A DNA stretch of 50,145 nucleotides from a virus: IMG/VR virus record IMGVR_UViG_3300042564_004195, positions 1 through 50,145 of that record; one strand, written 5' to 3'. Positions 1,512 to 11,773 of this stretch are shown one piece after another. Position 1 is the stretch's first letter, and every line of letters starts with the position of its first letter. The notes under the pieces are model-generated. The model searched no databases. It was not told where the DNA came from and was given only the letters and a program-made list of their open reading frames with translations. The position numbers were made by a program, and so were the translations under genes.

Positions 1512-1787
1512 ATGATCTTTCTAATAAAGGTATTTACATACTTAAATTGTACTGATTGTTTACGTCATCTAAAAACACTACGTGACTATTGTGAACGCAC
1601 TCCTACAAGTTTGCAAATAATTGATATTGACAAGGAAGAAAATATACCGCTTATATTTGAATATAAAATAGATGGCATACCGCACACAATATGCTATAAT
1701 ATACGTGGCGAAATTATGCATAGTTTTCCAGGAGTAAAAACTCCTGAAGAGTTTGACAATATTGTATATTATCGAACTGCAGATTAA
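1512..1787 (+). CDS. Small thioredoxin/glutaredoxin-fold protein
   Basis: A 91-residue protein with a thioredoxin-type layout: an N-terminal beta strand, then the redox motif C-T-D-C (residues 13-16) at the start of a helix, then a strand with IDIDKEE, and the GIPHT segment (55-59) whose Pro57 fits the cis-proline beside the active site. It resembles phage glutaredoxins that reduce ribonucleotide reductase or other disulfides; its partner here is unknown. It lies between the gp32 terminator and the oppositely transcribed tape measure gene, whose stop codon overlaps its own by 3 bp in antisense. No clear promoter or Shine-Dalgarno is seen. The fold is well supported, the substrate is not. Confidence 0.75.
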   Translation: MIFLIKVFTYLNCTDCLRHLKTLRDYCERTPTSLQIIDIDKEENIPLIFEYKIDGIPHTICYNIRGEIMHSFPGVKTPEEFDNIVYYRTAD

Positions 1788-3538
1788 TAACCCATTGCAC
1801 TGCCAGTTAGTATTGGCATCATTTGTGGCATATTATTATTTACATTGCTGCTACTAATATTATTAGTGTTGCCGCCATTATTGTTATTGACAACTATCGT
1901 TGGTGCTATATTTGCAACGTTGCCGGCAGTCGCTAGGGTGTTGCCAGTTGTTAATGGTGTTGCTTTGATGTTTGCTTTCCACTTAAAGTCTGAAGCAGCA
2001 TACTCATCCCATGAACCATAACCTGCAGCCATTGCCTTTTCAGTTTTAGACAGTTCGGTAAAATTATTTGTAGATGTAGCCTTTAATATTTTCTCAGATG
2101 ACGATGATGTAGCAGTTGCTAATTTTTCAGATGATGATGATGATGTAGCAGTTGCTAATTTTTCAGATGATGATGACTCTTTTTCTTTTGGAGAACTACT
2201 GTATGCATACTCGTAAATTTTTGGTGGTATTGCCTTGCGTACCCAATACTTCGGATTTGCCTTTGATAGATCTTCTTTCGGATCTGGCAATATTGCTCGT
2301 ATACTTGATTTGTAAAGTTCATTTATTGCATTTCCCATGTCACCTGCTATATCTCCTATTGCGCCACCAGCAGAAGAGAATAAATTTTCAACATCAGCAA
2401 AAATAGTTCTAAATAAATTTGGAAATACTTCTGTAAAAAGATTTTTGATCACATCAAAAATAAACACACTAATTTGTTTAATGATACCTGGTCCTTCAGT
2501 AATCAAATATTCTATAATTTTATAACCAAGTTTACTAATAAATACTGGAAGATCAAACAATAAAAATTTAAAACCATTTATAATAAGAGGAAATATTTCC
2601 ATTATTCCAGTAAGAAGAAGATTTCCTAAAGGTTTGACAATATTTTCCCAACTGTTTGTAAAATATTTTCCCAATTCATCAGTTAATTTATTAGCATCTA
2701 ATGAAAGAATAGCATCAAAAATAGTAAATAAACTTCTAAAATTATCTATAACTTGGTCAATGACTTGTTTTACAGTTGGTCCAAGGAGTGTTCCAAGTTT
2801 TTCAAGACCAAAAAGTTTTAAAATCCAACCTCCTATATCAGCAAGTACTTGTATCGTCGAAGCAAAAACACTATTAAAAAGACCAATTAATCCTTCTTCA
2901 ATTGCGCCCATAACTCCATCTTCTTTATATCCTTTAATTGCACCCATAATAGCACCAATAAGTCCAGTAACCACAGTTATTGCAAGTCCAATTGGGCCAG
3001 CCAATTTAGTAAGTTTACCAAAAATAGAAAATATTTTTGGCATTTTACTTAGCATATTCAATAAACCAGCTGGAAGAATTTTTGTACCTAATGTAGCAAA
3101 TATATTACCCAACCCCTTCAATAATCCACCCGCAAATGGTCCTCCCGCTGCAAATAAACCAGCTAATTTTCCAAATATTCCACCGGGGATTTCAATCTTA
3201 GAATTTTTAGCTGGTGCTGAACGTGTTTTATCTGGTTTTAAACCTCTAAGAGCATCAAGTAATTCGTCACGATTTTCACGCTCTTGTAATTTGTTTCCTT
3301 CTAACCGCTTTGCTAACACTACATTAGATCGTATTAATACATCAAATTTGCCTTTTAAATCGCCTGCTATGCCTACTAATTTATCTAAAAACGTAGGAAC
3401 CTCTGTAGTGTTTTCACGAGCAGCATTTGACGCAAGTGTAAAGTCATAGTTATCGATTGTATCAAGAATAAGATCTTGAGACAAATTAGAACTTTGTAAT
3501 TCTTTTACAACCTGGGCTAGTGACGATTCTGCGGTCAT
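1784..3538 (-). CDS. 29: Tail tape measure protein (T4 gp29 position)
   Basis: A 584-residue protein, almost the length of T4 gp29 (590), the tape measure that sets tail tube length and sits inside the hub and tube. Residues about 1-115 are helical and charged. About 118-400 form a Gly/Ala/Ile/Leu-rich hydrophobic stretch typical of tape measure proteins. From about 445 the chain becomes low complexity, with Ser-rich repeats of an SSSSEKLATAT unit and an Asn-rich end. Its ATG overlaps the TGA of the upstream short ORF (ATGA), so the genes are translationally coupled. Position directly after the gp26/gp51 pair is the classical chaperone-then-tape-measure order. If length tracks gp29, the tail should be near T4 length. 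Assignment rests on size, composition and position rather than clear gp29 similarity. Confidence 0.75.
   Translation of the reverse strand: MTAESSLAQVVKELQSSNLSQDLILDTIDNYDFTLASNAARENTTEVPTFLDKLVGIAGDLKGKFDVLIRSNVVLAKRLEGNKLQERENRDELLDALRGLKPDKTRSAPAKNSKIEIPGGIFGKLAGLFAAGGPFAGGLLKGLGNIFATLGTKILPAGLLNMLSKMPKIFSIFGKLTKLAGPIGLAITVVTGLIGAIMGAIKGYKEDGVMGAIEEGLIGLFNSVFASTIQVLADIGGWILKLFGLEKLGTLLGPTVKQVIDQVIDNFRSLFTIFDAILSLDANKLTDELGKYFTNSWENIVKPLGNLLLTGIMEIFPLIINGFKFLLFDLPVFISKLGYKIIEYLITEGPGIIKQISVFIFDVIKNLFTEVFPNLFRTIFADVENLFSSAGGAIGDIAGDMGNAINELYKSSIRAILPDPKEDLSKANPKYWVRKAIPPKIYEYAYSSSPKEKESSSSEKLATATSSSSSEKLATATSSSSEKILKATSTNNFTELSKTEKAMAAGYGSWDEYAASDFKWKANIKATPLTTGNTLATAGNVANIAPTIVVNNNNGGNTNNISSSNVNNNMPQMMPILTGSAMGY
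2094..2162 (-). repeat. Short tandem repeat in tape measure gene
   Basis: Two tandem units, 33 bp (2094-2126) and 36 bp (2127-2162), and the start of a third differ only in the number of GAT triplets. They encode repeats of S(4-5)-EKLATAT. The in-frame triplet variation suggests replication slippage in a tolerant linker. Confidence 0.8.
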
Positions 3539-3687
3539 TTTTTACGTTTTTCTTCTTCTTCTCTTATGTGTTTTATTAGCATTGCAATATAAATTTCCCT
3601 CTCCCATGGTATCATCGTGTCTAATTCAGTTAAACTATATTTGTGATGTTGCATGAGTGCAAAGTTTGTTTGATAGTAATTAGTCAA
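3535..3687 (-). CDS. gp51-position ORF, likely -1 frameshift extension of gp26
   Basis: A short reading frame between gp26 and the tape measure. From the gp26 frameshift site it is open for 58 codons (3711-3538) before the TGA at 3537-3535. The coordinates given start at a possible TTG (3687); the first in-frame ATG is at 3654. Neither has a Shine-Dalgarno. The protein contains NYYQTNFALMQHHKYSLTEL followed by a D-x-M-x-P-W-E-R-E-I-Y segment and a highly charged KHIREEEEKRKK end. Such a short helical domain with a P-W-E-R-E-I-Y-like core is what I associate with the small downstream partner of tail assembly chaperones. Its stop overlaps the tape measure ATG. By position it corresponds to T4 gp51, but T4 gp51 is longer and I do not claim homology. 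Most likely it is made as the C-terminus of a gp26 fusion. Confidence 0.7.
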   Translation of the reverse strand: MTNYYQTNFALMQHHKYSLTELDTMIPWEREIYIAMLIKHIREEEEKRKK

Positions 3688-3704
3688 CGATTCATGCGAG
3701 AGGG

Positions 3705-4415
3705 CTATTCGAAAAAAGCTTGTGTGCCTACAAGTGTAATATCATTGTCAGTCTTACAACCAGTACAATTAAATTTTACACTATGTTGTAGTTTAGGAGA
3801 GTTTGATATATACTCTTCAATTTTATTAAGTTGAGCTCGGCTTAAGCTGTTAACAAATGTTAGCAACTCTTCGCGAGACGACTGTGCTGAGGGATACACT
3901 CCACTGTCATCAAAGATTGAATCAATTGAAGCAATAAGCATATTTGTTATTGTGTCCATATCAACTTCAGATGTGCTTATAATCGTTGACATATCATTTA
4001 CACGTATATGTCTTAGAACCACACCAATTTTATCAGTTAACATAATTTTGTTGCTAATTTCTTTAACTGGCCACGTTACTTCAATATCATCAATATTAAC
4101 AGACACCTCGTTGTAAGTTTCACAATGATCGCACTTACATTTGATATTGCTAACTTCACCTACGCTCTTTGCTCGTAACTTTAAGAAAATATACTCTAAG
4201 TCAAACGAAGTCAAATCGTTTGGGTCAACGACACCGAATGTACAGGCTCGTATAATGTCTTTAATCGCGGACATCATTTCTGATGAGCTGTTTGACTCCT
4301 GTGCGAGCAGCAATATTTTTTCTTCCTTTACAAGAAAAGGACGATATTCAATTGACTGTGATGTAGATGGTACAGTCAATACATATTTTGGGGATTCTAG
4401 GATTGGTAATGGCAT
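3705..4415 (-). CDS. 26: gp26-like baseplate hub / tail assembly protein
   Basis: A 236-residue protein of the T4 gp26 (T4_baseplate) family, needed for assembly of the baseplate hub and probably the equivalent of the tail assembly chaperone. The N-terminus PLPILESPKYVLTVPST and the FRPFLVKEEKILLLA-type segment (here RPFLVKEEKILLLAQE, about 25-40) are family hallmarks. Two Cys pairs, C95/C98 in KCDHC and C217/C220 in NCTGC, can form a four-Cys zinc site. The zero-frame product ends QAFFE-stop, immediately after a slippery heptamer. An AATAAATA late-type element lies 10 nt upstream of the ATG. It follows the tail tube-like gene and precedes the tape measure, the normal place for chaperones. 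Confidence 0.85.
   Translation of the reverse strand: MPLPILESPKYVLTVPSTSQSIEYRPFLVKEEKILLLAQESNSSSEMMSAIKDIIRACTFGVVDPNDLTSFDLEYIFLKLRAKSVGEVSNIKCKCDHCETYNEVSVNIDDIEVTWPVKEISNKIMLTDKIGVVLRHIRVNDMSTIISTSEVDMDTITNMLIASIDSIFDDSGVYPSAQSSREELLTFVNSLSRAQLNKIEEYISNSPKLQHSVKFNCTGCKTDNDITLVGTQAFFE
3711..3717 (-). promoter_or_regulatory. Candidate -1 ribosomal frameshift heptamer
   Basis: Read on the minus strand, the end of gp26 is GCT TTT TTC GAA TAG. The heptamer T TTT TTC (3717-3711) fits the X XXY YYZ slippery pattern in the zero frame, one codon before the stop. A -1 slip continues with CGA into the 58-codon frame that ends at the tape measure start, giving a protein of about 293 residues. A 6-bp pairing, GCATGA with TCATGC (3698-3693 with 3655-3650), could form a weak downstream structure; no strong pseudoknot was identified by eye. 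Confidence 0.65.
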
Positions 4416-4439: not shown

Positions 4440-4967
4440 TTAACGTATGATATCTAATTTATCATATGTAAATACTACAGATATTTTTTGTATTGTTGAT
4501 TCAGCATTATTATCTAGTTCAATAGAATTCAAAGTTATTGGATATGCGTTTTGCAATTTAACATTTTGAATTTCTTTATCGCTTTCATTTAATTGTCTTA
4601 TTGTGATATCAGTCTTGTAAGTTTGGTGATCTTTAGCGAGTAGATAGGAATCAATGTTTATTATTTTTTTCATCCATTCATCTATCGCCTTTTTAATGGC
4701 GTTATTATTAGTTGAAATAAATGTCATTGTTACATCATCTTCAATATAACCGGTTGGTATTTTTAATGGACGACGAGTGCCTATATCATAGTCTAATGTT
4801 GTAATTTGTTTTCCAGGTATATTAACAGACTCACATAAAAATGAAATATCCCTTGATACAGATGATGAACCAGGTAAACTAGCAAATGTTACTGAAAATC
4901 TATTTGGACGCGCTAAGCCCCCATTTCGCATTATTGCAGATTTAAAATCATTTATTGAAGATGACAT
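4440..4967 (-). CDS. Tail tube protein of the gp19 family
   Basis: A 175-residue protein resembling T4 gp19, the 163-residue inner tube subunit. Visible family features are an N-terminal helix followed by NRFSVTFASLPG, a RDISFLCESVNIPGKQI segment, and RRPLKIPTGYIEDDVTMTF, where R-x-P-T-G is typical of tube proteins, then a C-terminal strand with KISVVFTYDKLDIIR. It could be the major tube subunit or a tube-initiator paralogue in the baseplate; copy number cannot be read from sequence. It lies 3 bp from the stop of the upstream gene with no promoter of its own, so it is probably expressed from the promoter at 5561-5568. Confidence 0.78.
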   Translation of the reverse strand: MSSSINDFKSAIMRNGGLARPNRFSVTFASLPGSSSVSRDISFLCESVNIPGKQITTLDYDIGTRRPLKIPTGYIEDDVTMTFISTNNNAIKKAIDEWMKKIINIDSYLLAKDHQTYKTDITIRQLNESDKEIQNVKLQNAYPITLNSIELDNNAESTIQKISVVFTYDKLDIIR

Positions 4968-6773: not shown

Positions 6774-8201
6774 ATGCCAAACTTTTTTGCAAAATATCCA
6801 AAAGTAAATTATGACCTGGTTTCTGATGGGTCTATATTTGAATTAACTGATATCTCTCGTTCTGTAGTATTAAACACAAATAAGATACAGGACGATAATG
6901 CGCTATACACATATTATGAAATAGAAGACGGAGAAAGACCCGATATAGTATCACATAAACTTTATGATGATGTACAATATTATTGGACATTTTTTATAAT
7001 AAATAATTTTTTACGTGACGGTTACGCGTCATCTTGGCCGCTATCTTATAGAAATTTTACAAAGATGATTGAGAGTGAATATGGTAAATATTCTGCACTA
7101 TCAATTGTCCCTGTTGTTGATCCAACAGTTGATCTAAATGGCCGAGGTAAACTAGACATGTCATGCATACCGCTTGATGAAAAATATTTGCCATACTTAA
7201 AATTTGTTTCTCAAGATCGTGAGTATCGTTCAAGCATAGCGCAGTATGACAGCGGTCGCCAACAATTAGTCATATATGATTGTCATAAAGTTGAAACATT
7301 TGGAATAATAACTAAAGCAACTACAAACAGTTTAACAAATTCATCAAAAAATTGGGTAACCAATCAATGGAGTAATAACCAAATAAGAATTACTTCTGGC
7401 ACAGGTGTTGGGCAAGTGAGAACAATTTCATCTAATACTGCTACTACAATAACAGTTTCAGAAAACTGGACAATTACTCCAGACTTGTCTTCAATATATG
7501 AAATTGAAACATTTGGAACACCAACCAGTTCAACTAAAAATAGTTTAGTTGATTTGTCAAAAAAATGGGTACCCGACCAATGGAGTAATAGTCAAATAAA
7601 AATTATTAGTGGTACCGGAGTTGGCCAAGCGAGAACAATTTTATCTAATAATACTAATACTCTTACTCTTTCAACAAACTGGACAATTACCCCAGACAAG
7701 TATTCAACATATTTGATAATTAAATCAACTGAAAAAATAAAAATATCAGCAGAAACATTTATAGAAAACACAAATTTTAGTTATAAAATTACTTATGATA
7801 GTTTGAGTTATGACTCTATGCCAGATAATCATAAACAAACGTGGATAGATGCAGTATATTCTAATATTATAAAATATGATCAGATTGGATATGCTGAACA
7901 TATCGAAGCAAACACTACAAAAGAACAATATGTGTCTACGAAAACGCTAAACGTGGCAGACCCACAATACCGATGGAGCAACTATGCCAATGCTGCATAT
8001 GAATATGTTGATCCAATTGGCGTCATACGTTCTGCATATGATATTTTAACTGACGAGAATGTAGTTATTCCAAAATACAAATCATTTTATGAGTATGAAA
8101 ATGAAATAAACGAAAGTAAACGAGTTATACAAGTCATACGCCCAGATTTTATCTCTGATTTTGCAGACGAATATTTTAATGTTTTAAATGATACTCTTTG
8201 A
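6774..8201 (+). CDS. 53: gp53-like baseplate wedge protein with inserted tandem repeat
   Basis: A 475-residue relative of T4 gp53 (196 residues), a wedge protein joining neighbouring wedges. Residues about 1-105 carry the gp53 core: NALYTYYEIEDGERPDIVSH and LYDDVQYYWTFFIINNF, then YRNFTKMIESEYG. Residues 174-244 and 245-316 are two tandem copies of a module with NSL, K-x-W-V-x-x-Q-W-S-N-x-Q-I, SGTGVGQ-x-RTI and NWTITPD; a related sequence occurs in the 1935-residue protein at 26010. The C-terminal region (from about 320) has conserved YDSM and YRWSNYANAAYEYVDP segments. ATG at 6774 directly follows the upstream stop. The module looks like an acquired surface or spacer domain. Confidence 0.85.
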   Translation: MPNFFAKYPKVNYDLVSDGSIFELTDISRSVVLNTNKIQDDNALYTYYEIEDGERPDIVSHKLYDDVQYYWTFFIINNFLRDGYASSWPLSYRNFTKMIESEYGKYSALSIVPVVDPTVDLNGRGKLDMSCIPLDEKYLPYLKFVSQDREYRSSIAQYDSGRQQLVIYDCHKVETFGIITKATTNSLTNSSKNWVTNQWSNNQIRITSGTGVGQVRTISSNTATTITVSENWTITPDLSSIYEIETFGTPTSSTKNSLVDLSKKWVPDQWSNSQIKIISGTGVGQARTILSNNTNTLTLSTNWTITPDKYSTYLIIKSTEKIKISAETFIENTNFSYKITYDSLSYDSMPDNHKQTWIDAVYSNIIKYDQIGYAEHIEANTTKEQYVSTKTLNVADPQYRWSNYANAAYEYVDPIGVIRSAYDILTDENVVIPKYKSFYEYENEINESKRVIQVIRPDFISDFADEYFNVLNDTL

Positions 8202-9835: not shown

Positions 9836-10408
9836 ATGAAAATTGAACATTGGTTTACTGGAGTCGTAGAAAATATTGCAGACCCATTAAATGCAGGTCG
9901 CGTACAGATTCGTTGTTTTGAATATCATGAACAAAACAATATAATATTGCCAAGTGAAAATTTACCATGGGCAATGCCAATTATGCCGCTTACAAGCGCA
10001 AGTCTGAGAGGAATTGGCACAAGTTCAACTGGGTTACGTGTTGGTAGTTGGGTGTTTGGATTTTTTAGAGATGCTGACTTACAAGATCTAGTAATAATTA
10101 ATAGTATTGGAGGAATTGTTCCAAATTCAGTGTCTAGCGGCGGAAACACGTCATCTAATAGTGTGAGTTCAACAACACGCTCAACCAATGCAAATGCCAT
10201 TGGGCCGTCTGGCACAAATCCATCACCTACAAAAACTGTTACTGGCATAGATGTTCAATATGATGAGTTTCTTAATAATACTACAAATGCCAGTGATATT
10301 GGAAATCGCAGTCCAGTTGGAGGAGATGAGGAACCTAGTCTTTTACCACCGCTGCCAGGAACTCCAGAAGCCGATGCAATTGATGTATTGCCACCACTAG
10401 ATCTATAG
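9836..10408 (+). CDS. gp5-like hub OB-fold protein without lytic domain
   Basis: A 190-residue protein with only the N-terminal OB-fold domain of T4 gp5: HWFTGVVENIADPLNAGRVQ, ENLPWAMPIMPLTSAS and GSWVFGFFRDADLQD (up to about residue 85). The rest is Ser/Thr/Asn/Pro-rich, ending in acidic and proline runs (LLPPLPGTPEADAIDVLPP). There is no lysozyme and no beta-helix. It is a tandem paralogue of the next gene, with high identity over the first 90 residues in protein and DNA. It may form mixed trimers with that protein on gp27, or be a variant hub subunit. No Shine-Dalgarno is visible. Confidence 0.8.
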   Translation: MKIEHWFTGVVENIADPLNAGRVQIRCFEYHEQNNIILPSENLPWAMPIMPLTSASLRGIGTSSTGLRVGSWVFGFFRDADLQDLVIINSIGGIVPNSVSSGGNTSSNSVSSTTRSTNANAIGPSGTNPSPTKTVTGIDVQYDEFLNNTTNASDIGNRSPVGGDEEPSLLPPLPGTPEADAIDVLPPLDL

Positions 10409-10426: not shown

Positions 10427-11773
10427 ATGAAAATTGATCATTGGTTTATTGGCATAGTAGAAAATATTGCAGACCCGCTAAATGCAGGACGTGTGCAAGT
10501 TCGGTGCTATGAATATCATGAACTTGATGATGTTAATAGCGTGCCTAGTGAAAATTTACCATGGGCAACTCCACTCATGCCACTTACAAGTGCTAGTAGT
10601 GCTGGTACTGGCACAAGTCCAACTGGACTAATGGCTGGTAGTTGGGTGTTTGGCTTTTTTAGAGATGCTGATCAACAGGACCCAGTAATACTTGGTAGTA
10701 TTCCTGGAGTTGAATCATTAAACGGCACAAGCATACCAGCAGACGCTAGCAGTTCTTCAGTAGGCGCAGCCTATTCGAGCGCGACAAACACCTCACAATA
10801 CACAGAAGGTTCACCTTCTGCAGGAGCAGCAAATACTTCGGCACTTGATGGAGATGATATAGCTGCTCAACAGAATAATACAAGTACAAGTACAAGCGCC
10901 TTTATTAATAATTTAGTACGAATAGCAGTAGGAGAAAATGGCACAAGCAATAGCGCAGGTCGTAGTAAATATGGCGTTAATGACGCTTGGTGCGCAGCAT
11001 TTTTAACATGGTGTATAAAACAAACAGGAGCAATACCAACATCAGATTTACCGGCTAATCCAAATGCAGTTGCCGAATGGTTAAAATGGCCAAATGGAAA
11101 AGGTGGTAAGTATGTAATTAAAATTGCTAATCCTAAAGTGTTGTATGCTGGCGATATTTTAATTAGGGACGCTGCACAAGATCATATAGGATTGGTAAGT
11201 AAAGGTGGTTCAATTACCGGCGGCTATACTTCGGTTGAAGGCAACACTGGTAAAAATCGATCAGTGATGGTGCGGGATAAAAAGGGCGGATTTAACTATG
11301 TGTTGAGATGGAAAGGTGCATTTGGCGGTACTGACGTAGCAACGCCAATGACATTATCACCTGAAAGTACTCCAATTGGTGTACCTGCTGGATGGATAGG
11401 AAAAAGAACAGGCCCGCCTGCAATAGTTTTTGATGGTACTGGTTATTATCCGCCAGGTGATACGCATATACCAGCAACGGCATATAAAATTGGTGGGCAA
11501 TATTTAAATGGTGACACTACAAAATTTGTTGTAGTTAATAGACAAGATTATAATAATTTTAAAATGGGTAGTAAAGTGTATGTTTATAACCATACAACTA
11601 AACAAGCAACATGGGCAATAGCTGGAGATCGCGGTCCAACACAAACCCGAAGTGAAATGTCAGTTGCAACAGCTGAAGCAGTTGGTGTTAAAATACTTAA
11701 AGGATCAGACGGAAAATATCGAAATGCTGTTGATGGTAATTATGTTGTAAGTTTTTACTTTTTTGATAGTTAA
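10427..11773 (+). CDS. 5: gp5-like hub protein with CHAP and GH75-like domains
   Basis: A 448-residue tail lysin. Residues 1-95 are the gp5 OB-fold (HWFIGIVENIADPLNAGRVQ, ENLPWATPLMPLTSAS, GSWVFGFFRDADQQDPVILG). After a Ser/Thr/Ala linker, residues about 156-297 form a CHAP/NlpC-type amidase-peptidase: Cys189 in NDAWCAAF, His253 in DHIGLV, and Glu271/Asn273 in SVEGNTG are the likely catalytic residues. Residues about 320-447 resemble the GH75 chitosanase fold, with GDRGPTQTRSEMSVATAEAV (400-419), where Asp401 and Glu410 fit that family's acidic pair. T4 gp5 has a lysozyme in this place. The protein would cut peptide and perhaps glycan bonds of the host wall during penetration. The beta-helix of T4 gp5 is missing and is encoded separately at 12006. 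Confidence 0.85.
   Translation: MKIDHWFIGIVENIADPLNAGRVQVRCYEYHELDDVNSVPSENLPWATPLMPLTSASSAGTGTSPTGLMAGSWVFGFFRDADQQDPVILGSIPGVESLNGTSIPADASSSSVGAAYSSATNTSQYTEGSPSAGAANTSALDGDDIAAQQNNTSTSTSAFINNLVRIAVGENGTSNSAGRSKYGVNDAWCAAFLTWCIKQTGAIPTSDLPANPNAVAEWLKWPNGKGGKYVIKIANPKVLYAGDILIRDAAQDHIGLVSKGGSITGGYTSVEGNTGKNRSVMVRDKKGGFNYVLRWKGAFGGTDVATPMTLSPESTPIGVPAGWIGKRTGPPAIVFDGTGYYPPGDTHIPATAYKIGGQYLNGDTTKFVVVNRQDYNNFKMGSKVYVYNHTTKQATWAIAGDRGPTQTRSEMSVATAEAVGVKILKGSDGKYRNAVDGNYVVSFYFFDS

Follow-up and report, generated by a model that had tools for sequence, protein, structure and literature searches.

The locus described here raises the question of how a short reading frame with no evident start of its own might be translated when it lies between a homologue of the T4 protein gp26 and a probable tape measure gene. 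It is found on the minus strand of virus record IMGVR_UViG_3300042564_004195, which belongs to an uncultivated T4-like phage and whose 50,145 bases were analysed as a whole and are called the window below. The gp26 gene ends in CAA GCT TTT TTC GAA TAG, with the heptamer T TTT TTC in X XXY YYZ phase. A first-pass annotation of the window had proposed that this canonical heptamer, one codon 5' of the gp26 stop, joins gp26 to a −1 frame that is open for 58 codons and ends over the ATG of the next open reading frame (ORF). The coordinates agree with this to the base. The heptamer occupies 3717-3711 and the stop TAG 3707-3705; after the shift, the −1 frame starts with R-I-A-L-S-H-E at 3711 (full reading RIALSHESLTNYYQTNFALMQHHKYSLTELDTMIPWEREIYIAMLIKHIREEEEKRKK), and its TGA (3537-3535) overlaps the ATG (3538-3536) of a 584-residue ORF, as ATGA. 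The predicted fusion has 235 + 58 = 293 amino acids (aa), in line with the product of about 293 residues proposed earlier. On the evidence of these and related sequences, we consider it very probable that the locus encodes a programmed −1 ribosomal frameshift in a tail assembly chaperone (TAC) gene, of the lambda G/GT type and stimulated by an RNA stem.

A scan of IMG/VR with gp26, from which the best 80 of at least 600 matching stretches were retained, together with further scans and 15 GenBank regions, gave 195 sequences including the window; a scan with the gp26 of a Nitratidesulfovibrio phage as the query yielded no loci. The sequence of T4 falls below the tblastn limit for a gp26 match, hence 194 loci rather than 195 enter the counts. 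In all of the best 80 (of at least 600), an in-phase TTTTTTN stands 7 to 31 nucleotides (nt) before the zero-frame stop and a similar −1 frame is open, running off the contig end in one locus (L034); another locus (L001) encodes a protein identical to that of the window. Heptamer and open −1 frame, whose conservation the first-pass annotation had named as a check, are kept together in 177 of the 194 gp26 loci, as TTTTTTC in 149, TTTTTTT in 26, and TTTTTTA and TTTTTTG in 1 each. The distance from heptamer to stop among the 177 is 10 nt in 152, 7 in 12, 31 in 9, 16 in 3 and 13 in 1, and this variation indicates that the slip site, not the stop, is the conserved element.

At 70% gp26 identity, the 177 loci reduce to 73 non-redundant ones. 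The codon 5' of the two phenylalanines ends in T and the first phenylalanine codon is TTT in 73/73, where synonymous choice following own codon usage predicts 26.5; the residue before the phenylalanines varies (Ser 42, Asp 14, Asn 12, Ala 5). Because these loci were chosen for the heptamer, the count gauges wobble constraint within them and not the prevalence of the site. Statistics on the extension were drawn from the 69 of the 73 loci that have a P-[WFYA]-E-[RK] motif at a common place, the other four being dropped. Read in the −1 frame, their first, second and third codon positions show 0.33, 0.17 and 0.56 differences per site, a pattern typical of coding sequence and indicating that the extension evolves under protein constraint.

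The RNA downstream of the slip site, on which the first-pass annotation was silent, appears to be structured as well. Counting from the first T of the heptamer as 0, positions 13-24 are predicted to pair with 109-120 at mean base-pair probabilities of about 0.25-0.44 in 69 ungapped loci, as compared to 0.02-0.06 in synonymous shuffles. In the window, this stem joins 3704-3693 with 3608-3597 in 11 of 12 pairs, with one G-G mismatch, is extended by inner helices and closes a loop of ~84 nt. The window RNA from 3710 to 3583 has a minimum free energy of −35.3 kcal/mol (z −6.06), and none of 200 dinucleotide shuffles is as stable. Over the 73 loci, the region from +8 to +130 has a mean z of −2.8 (30 synonymous shuffles per locus; −5.3 in the window), and a second run over +12 to +132 gave −2.88, with 48 of 73 loci below −2. 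Control windows are closer to zero: five in gp26 have mean z values of −0.32 to −0.73 (73 loci each) and three in the next gene of −1.33, −0.56 and −0.23 (47 loci). A helix of at least 7 base pairs starting at +12 to +15 occurs in the minimum free energy fold of 42 of the 73 loci, against 12.8 expected (standard deviation 3.1), and the starts peak at exactly +13 (31 against 4.6 expected), which implies a spacer of 6 nt. A search of Rfam with positions 3400-3900 gave no match at E≤1.

Further support for the stem comes from covariation. In the alignment of 69 rows, 57 cells have both partners of a pair changed, as compared to 33.5 (standard deviation 5.4) in shuffles, a value reached in 0 of 500, and the covariation score is 0.196 as compared to 0.149. 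A tree-aware test employed a gp26 tree and 119 of 125 loci at 90% identity, loci without the motif at the common place being omitted, with 70-99 rows per pair. In this test the independent locus pairs changing together, against those changing oppositely, number 6.3 against 0.1 for 14:119, 5.5 against 0.0 for 17:116 and 5.5 against 0.8 for 23:110. Each of the six sites falls on the third position of a −1 frame codon, and C/T and G/A substitutions in these codons are silent. The controls were 67 unpaired third-position pairs passing the filters (at least 50 rows and at least 3 informative pairs); the best of them has a net value of 3.5 as compared to 6.2, 5.5 and 4.7 for the three stem pairs, which no control reaches. 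Taken singly, the sign tests of these pairs are weak, with median p of about 0.03, 0.03 and 0.125.

A structure of this kind may serve a different purpose, such as regulating how the tape measure is translated or how stable the mRNA is, with no effect on frameshifting. The structure is deduced from sequence alone, and the weaker excess at the start of the next gene (the mean z of −1.33, n=47) is in keeping with such a role. However, the 5' arm keeps its place at +13 in lineages whose partner positions differ (39 to 134), and it does so in three of the five non-redundant loci with a zero-frame stop 31 nt past the heptamer (L060, L073 and L084, not L048 and L080). In addition, the stem of the window leaves the tape measure start uncovered, that start lying in a separate predicted hairpin. 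We therefore regard a purpose other than frameshifting as unlikely. Transcriptional rather than ribosomal slippage on the T-run could also join the two frames, and 73/73 loci do contain an unbroken run of 6-8 Ts, though they were chosen for having one. The run is short, with 6 Ts in 55 loci, 7 in 16 and 8 in 2, and it is followed by a conserved stem at ribosomal spacing, whereas spacing of this kind is not required for transcriptional slippage, which usually involves longer runs. It was rejected on these two grounds and is in our view extremely improbable.

The same features bear on a reading of the short frame as an independent gene 51, with a start codon of its own or with translation through termination-reinitiation where gp26 ends. 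Several records, cyanophages among them, annotate a coding sequence (CDS) of its own here from an internal ATG or another start, and 54 of 69 loci have an ATG at residue 20 of the extension. That ATG, however, sits within the conserved region, and residues 4, 9, 16 and 17, which lie 5' of it, are each identical in at least 60 of the 69 loci. At or before residue 3, 60 of the 69 loci have no ATG, GTG or TTG, and no start position there is kept, so that the separately initiated short protein considered in the first-pass annotation finds no conserved early start. In the window, as that annotation had also stated, no ATG is near: the earliest ATG, GTG or TTG is a TTG at 3687, with no purine-rich Shine-Dalgarno-like stretch visible 5' of it, and internal ATGs follow. 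Moreover, a separate gene gives no reason to expect constrained wobble positions in the T-run or a stem placed 6 nt past the heptamer. Independent initiation was rejected in view of the rarity of early starts, the wobble constraint and the stem spacing, and a separate gene 51 seems to us very improbable. Readthrough of the gp26 stop was also considered; it would add little because a zero-frame TGA comes six codons past the TAG.

Two of the 22 GenBank regions are unannotated, and a joined CDS is shown in none of the other 20 (T4 and 19 more). In three cyanophages (ACG-2014j, ACG-2014d and S-MbCM6; L085, L086 and L087), the extension frame is present with no CDS annotated over it. Beyond the window, where the −1 stop overlaps the next ATG, the first ATG or GTG of the long ORF is offset by −1 in 9, −5 in 9 and +2 in 12 of 68 loci, other offsets being scattered and the long-ORF start not found in 15; stop-start coupling is therefore not a fixed feature.

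In T4, genes 26 and 51 are indeed two genes, as the first-pass annotation held. Among the records searched whole, T4 has two PF12322 matches (gp26 and gp51) and 13 of 13 others have one; a gp26 search of the window record, which is a 50-kb fragment with a short frame of 58 aa, finds just gp26, and a second gene may lie outside the fragment. T4 gp51 consists of a gp26-like domain (residues 1-201) and a C-terminal stretch, of which residues 207-244 align with the extension (hhalign E 5e-5, probability 68%). T4 thus resembles the window in its PF12322 domain and in the homology of gp51 207-244 to the extension, but differs in that its two full-length PF12322 genes are separate and lie on opposite strands and in that its T-run is broken, its gp26 ending in GAG TTC TTT GAG TTA CTA. 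Vibrio phage phi-pp2, of T4's own family Straboviridae, retains the single gene and the heptamer. As T4 gp51 combines a gp26-like domain with an extension-like tail and the T4 T-run is broken, frameshifting in the window's relatives appears to yield what T4 encodes in a second gene.

The proteins of the locus fit a tail-assembly setting. The window's gp26 matches PF12322 (Pfam search; E 1.5e-56, 191.9 bits against a cut-off of 24.5) and phrog_150 (phrog profile search; E 2e-60), and the 58-aa extension has its own match in phrog_634, 'baseplate hub assembly catalyst' (E 2.4e-27), besides a weaker one at the C-terminal end of phrog_150. The gene 5' of gp26 matches PF06841 above the cut-off and phrog_45 (E 8e-43), so the order is tube-type gene, gp26, extension and probable tape measure. 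For the 584-aa ORF, matches to tape measure families are weak (phrog_6090, E 3.2e-6), the top phrog match (phrog_315, E 2e-6) carries the family name endolysin and the Pfam search gave no match; in phage HTVC008M, a 'putative tail tape measure' is annotated one gene further downstream. Among named phages, 635 records match gp26, every one at <60% identity, and 462 of them are called Synechococcus, Cyanophage or Prochlorococcus.

The AlphaFold model of gp26 (pLDDT 93.9, from a 61-sequence alignment) leans towards the fold of tail assembly chaperones. Its residues 5-95 align with 3fgx (Z 7.7 over 85 residues) and residues 1-85 with the HK97 tail assembly chaperone 2ob9 (Z 7.5 over 83), the next-ranked structure having a Z of 5.2. 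Among viral models, the top named Foldseek matches of gp26 are baseplate hub proteins, and a comparison of the gp26 profile with PDB sequences returned nothing credible (best E 0.052). The extension is modelled as three helices (pLDDT 80), for which Foldseek found no match at E≤0.001 in the viral library.

Several observations weigh against the interpretation given above. Best Z values of 7-8, a range that includes the 7.5-7.7 of the gp26 model, are commonly reached between structures that are not truly related, and a Foldseek search of the PDB with this model returned nothing at E≤0.001. As for the stem, the long-range partner is found in only 40 of the 73 loci; another 13 fold this 5' arm into a local hairpin, and 20 fit neither class by the thresholds used. 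In the 69 rows, the number of pairs with double changes (6 vs 5.6) and of extra pair types (17 vs 17.4) is no higher than in shuffles. Pair 13:120 has no independent covariation on the tree (1.2 vs 1.0), and for this reason its C-G/G-C variation was dropped as evidence. An upstream Shine-Dalgarno-like stimulator also lacks support in the window (−2.4 kcal/mol, weaker than the null of −4.2). Among relatives, 28 of 73 loci (e.g. L027, L033 and L056) have a predicted pairing with the anti-Shine-Dalgarno sequence, ~15-12 nt 5' of the heptamer, whose value falls under the 5th percentile of their synonymous shuffles; by this measure relatives favour a Shine-Dalgarno-like stimulator upstream and the window has none.

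Finally, 17 of the 194 loci have no heptamer. One of these is L115, a Stenotrophomonas-type phage contig that has five Ts near 3750, breaking the arrangement; its near-identical relative L114 has six, and L115 represents a sequencing error or a natural variant. The remaining 16 are all the ackermannvirus-type loci of the set, namely a named ackermannvirus (L095) and 15 IMG/VR relatives 70-100% identical to it (L097-L111), in which 29 junction nt are invariant. These loci retain a −1 gp51-like extension with an MPWHL motif. All 16, and 7 of 7 further records (L196-L202, of which L197 is not classified to family), have [ACG]TT TTY, a T_TTY tetramer in the phase of the heptamer, and Z_ZZN tetramers are described as a recognised slip class (PMC4066793). 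The junction reads TAATG in L197, L200 and L202, making reinitiation possible in these three.

From the elements described above we infer that slippage takes place, at some rate, and that the stem stimulates it. According to this model, most ribosomes would stop at the TAG and produce the 236-aa gp26 (TAC-N), and a minority would slip back one base on T TTT TTC and produce the 293-aa gp26-gp51' fusion (TAC-NC), the long stem 6 nt downstream holding ribosomes up at the slip site. By analogy with lambda G/GT, coating of the tape measure protein would fall to the short form and recruitment of tail tube subunits to the C-terminal domain of the long form. The slip site of lambda is GGGAAAG, different from that of the window, and the likeness drawn here between gp26 and lambda G is one of arrangement. 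What the two would share is a low-level −1 extension of a chaperone gene serving the tape measure protein (PMC5009743).

With respect to the stem, bacterial −1 signals are described as having a stem-loop 5-8 nt past the slippery heptamer (PMC4066793), that of dnaX being an 11-bp stem after 5 nt (PMC8861025, PMC4066793). The window, with a predicted stem after 6 nt, resembles E. coli dnaX and IS911 in this respect. It is unlike them in that its main stem closes a loop of ~84 nt, other lineages folding the 5' arm into a local hairpin, and unlike some signals of this type, as a Shine-Dalgarno-like element is not universal among them, in having no such element upstream. We think it likely that the stem is an undescribed, deeply conserved frameshift stimulator of T4-like phages other than T4. 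Its 5' arm would be fixed 6 nt past the T6 heptamer, and its 3' partner would have moved by lineage between distal (~+109 to +120, in the PWERE codons) and local sites. Such a stem would be kept by third-position compensatory changes and would set the ratio of gp26 to fusion.

The frameshift itself, and the link of gp26/gp51 to chaperones, are already known in T4-like phages. The abstract of Vladimirov et al. 2022 reportedly names genes 26 and 51 and states that frameshifting is conserved in several T4-like groups. G-T frameshifting is described as widely conserved 'except T4' (PMC5009743); some T4-like phages are said, citing Vladimirov et al. 2022, to have a short gene and a longer fusion gene (PMC10885494), and poly-T −1 frameshift signals in their TAC-N genes are credited to the same authors (PMC12846349). 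The proposal in the first-pass annotation that gp26 belongs to the tail-chaperone paradigm is thus in print, and the heptamer, the coding −1 frame and the gp51-like extension support it for the window. No RNA stimulator of this frameshift is described in the literature searched, which left most subscription papers, including Vladimirov et al. 2022, outside. The conserved, covarying stem may therefore be the new part of a mechanism of known kind.

Coordinates of the features of the gp26 locus in the window, with the evidence for each.
Feature	Position	Strand	Length or content	Evidence
gp26 homologue, short chaperone form (TAC-N)	3705..4415	-	236 aa + zero-frame stop	PF12322, phrog_150, AlphaFold model
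Slippery heptamer T TTT TTC	3711..3717	-		sequence; in-phase TTTTTTN in 177/194 loci
Spacer, heptamer to stem	3705..3710	-	6 nt, GAATAG; holds zero-frame stop TAG (3705-3707)	sequence, folds
−1 frame extension, gp51 C-terminal-like (TAC-C)	3535..3711	-	58 aa + TGA	phrog_634, codon-position divergence, T4 gp51 alignment
5' arm, predicted stimulatory stem	3693..3704	-	11/12 pairs form, one G-G mismatch	folds, covariation
3' arm, predicted stimulatory stem	3597..3608	-		folds, covariation
Probable tape measure protein	1784..3538	-	584 aa; start codon overlaps −1 frame stop	position, weak phrog matches
Tail-tube-fold protein (gp19/gp54-like), 5' of gp26	4440..4967	-		PF06841, phrog_45

Elsewhere in the window, on the plus strand, a 475-aa ORF (6774-8201) contains two similar tandem stretches of ~75 residues each, WSNNQIRITSGTGVGQVRTI and WSNSQIKIISGTGVGQARTI. 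The adjacent plus-strand ORFs 9836-10408 and 10427-11773 have very similar N-termini, MKIEHWFTGVVENIADPLNAGRVQIRC and MKIDHWFIGIVENIADPLNAGRVQVRC, and are likely the result of a duplication.

Our analysis supports a picture in which the lambda tail-chaperone scheme extends to cyanophages and other marine T4-like phages, with the textbook phage T4 as an exception whose genes are split. Cyanophage gp51 has been reported to be ~20% of the usual length (PMC3037559); this shortness is explained if the product forms the terminal part of a fusion. Should the stem be confirmed, these phages would provide a natural set of variants for measuring how the position and shape of a stem set the rate of frameshifting in bacteria.

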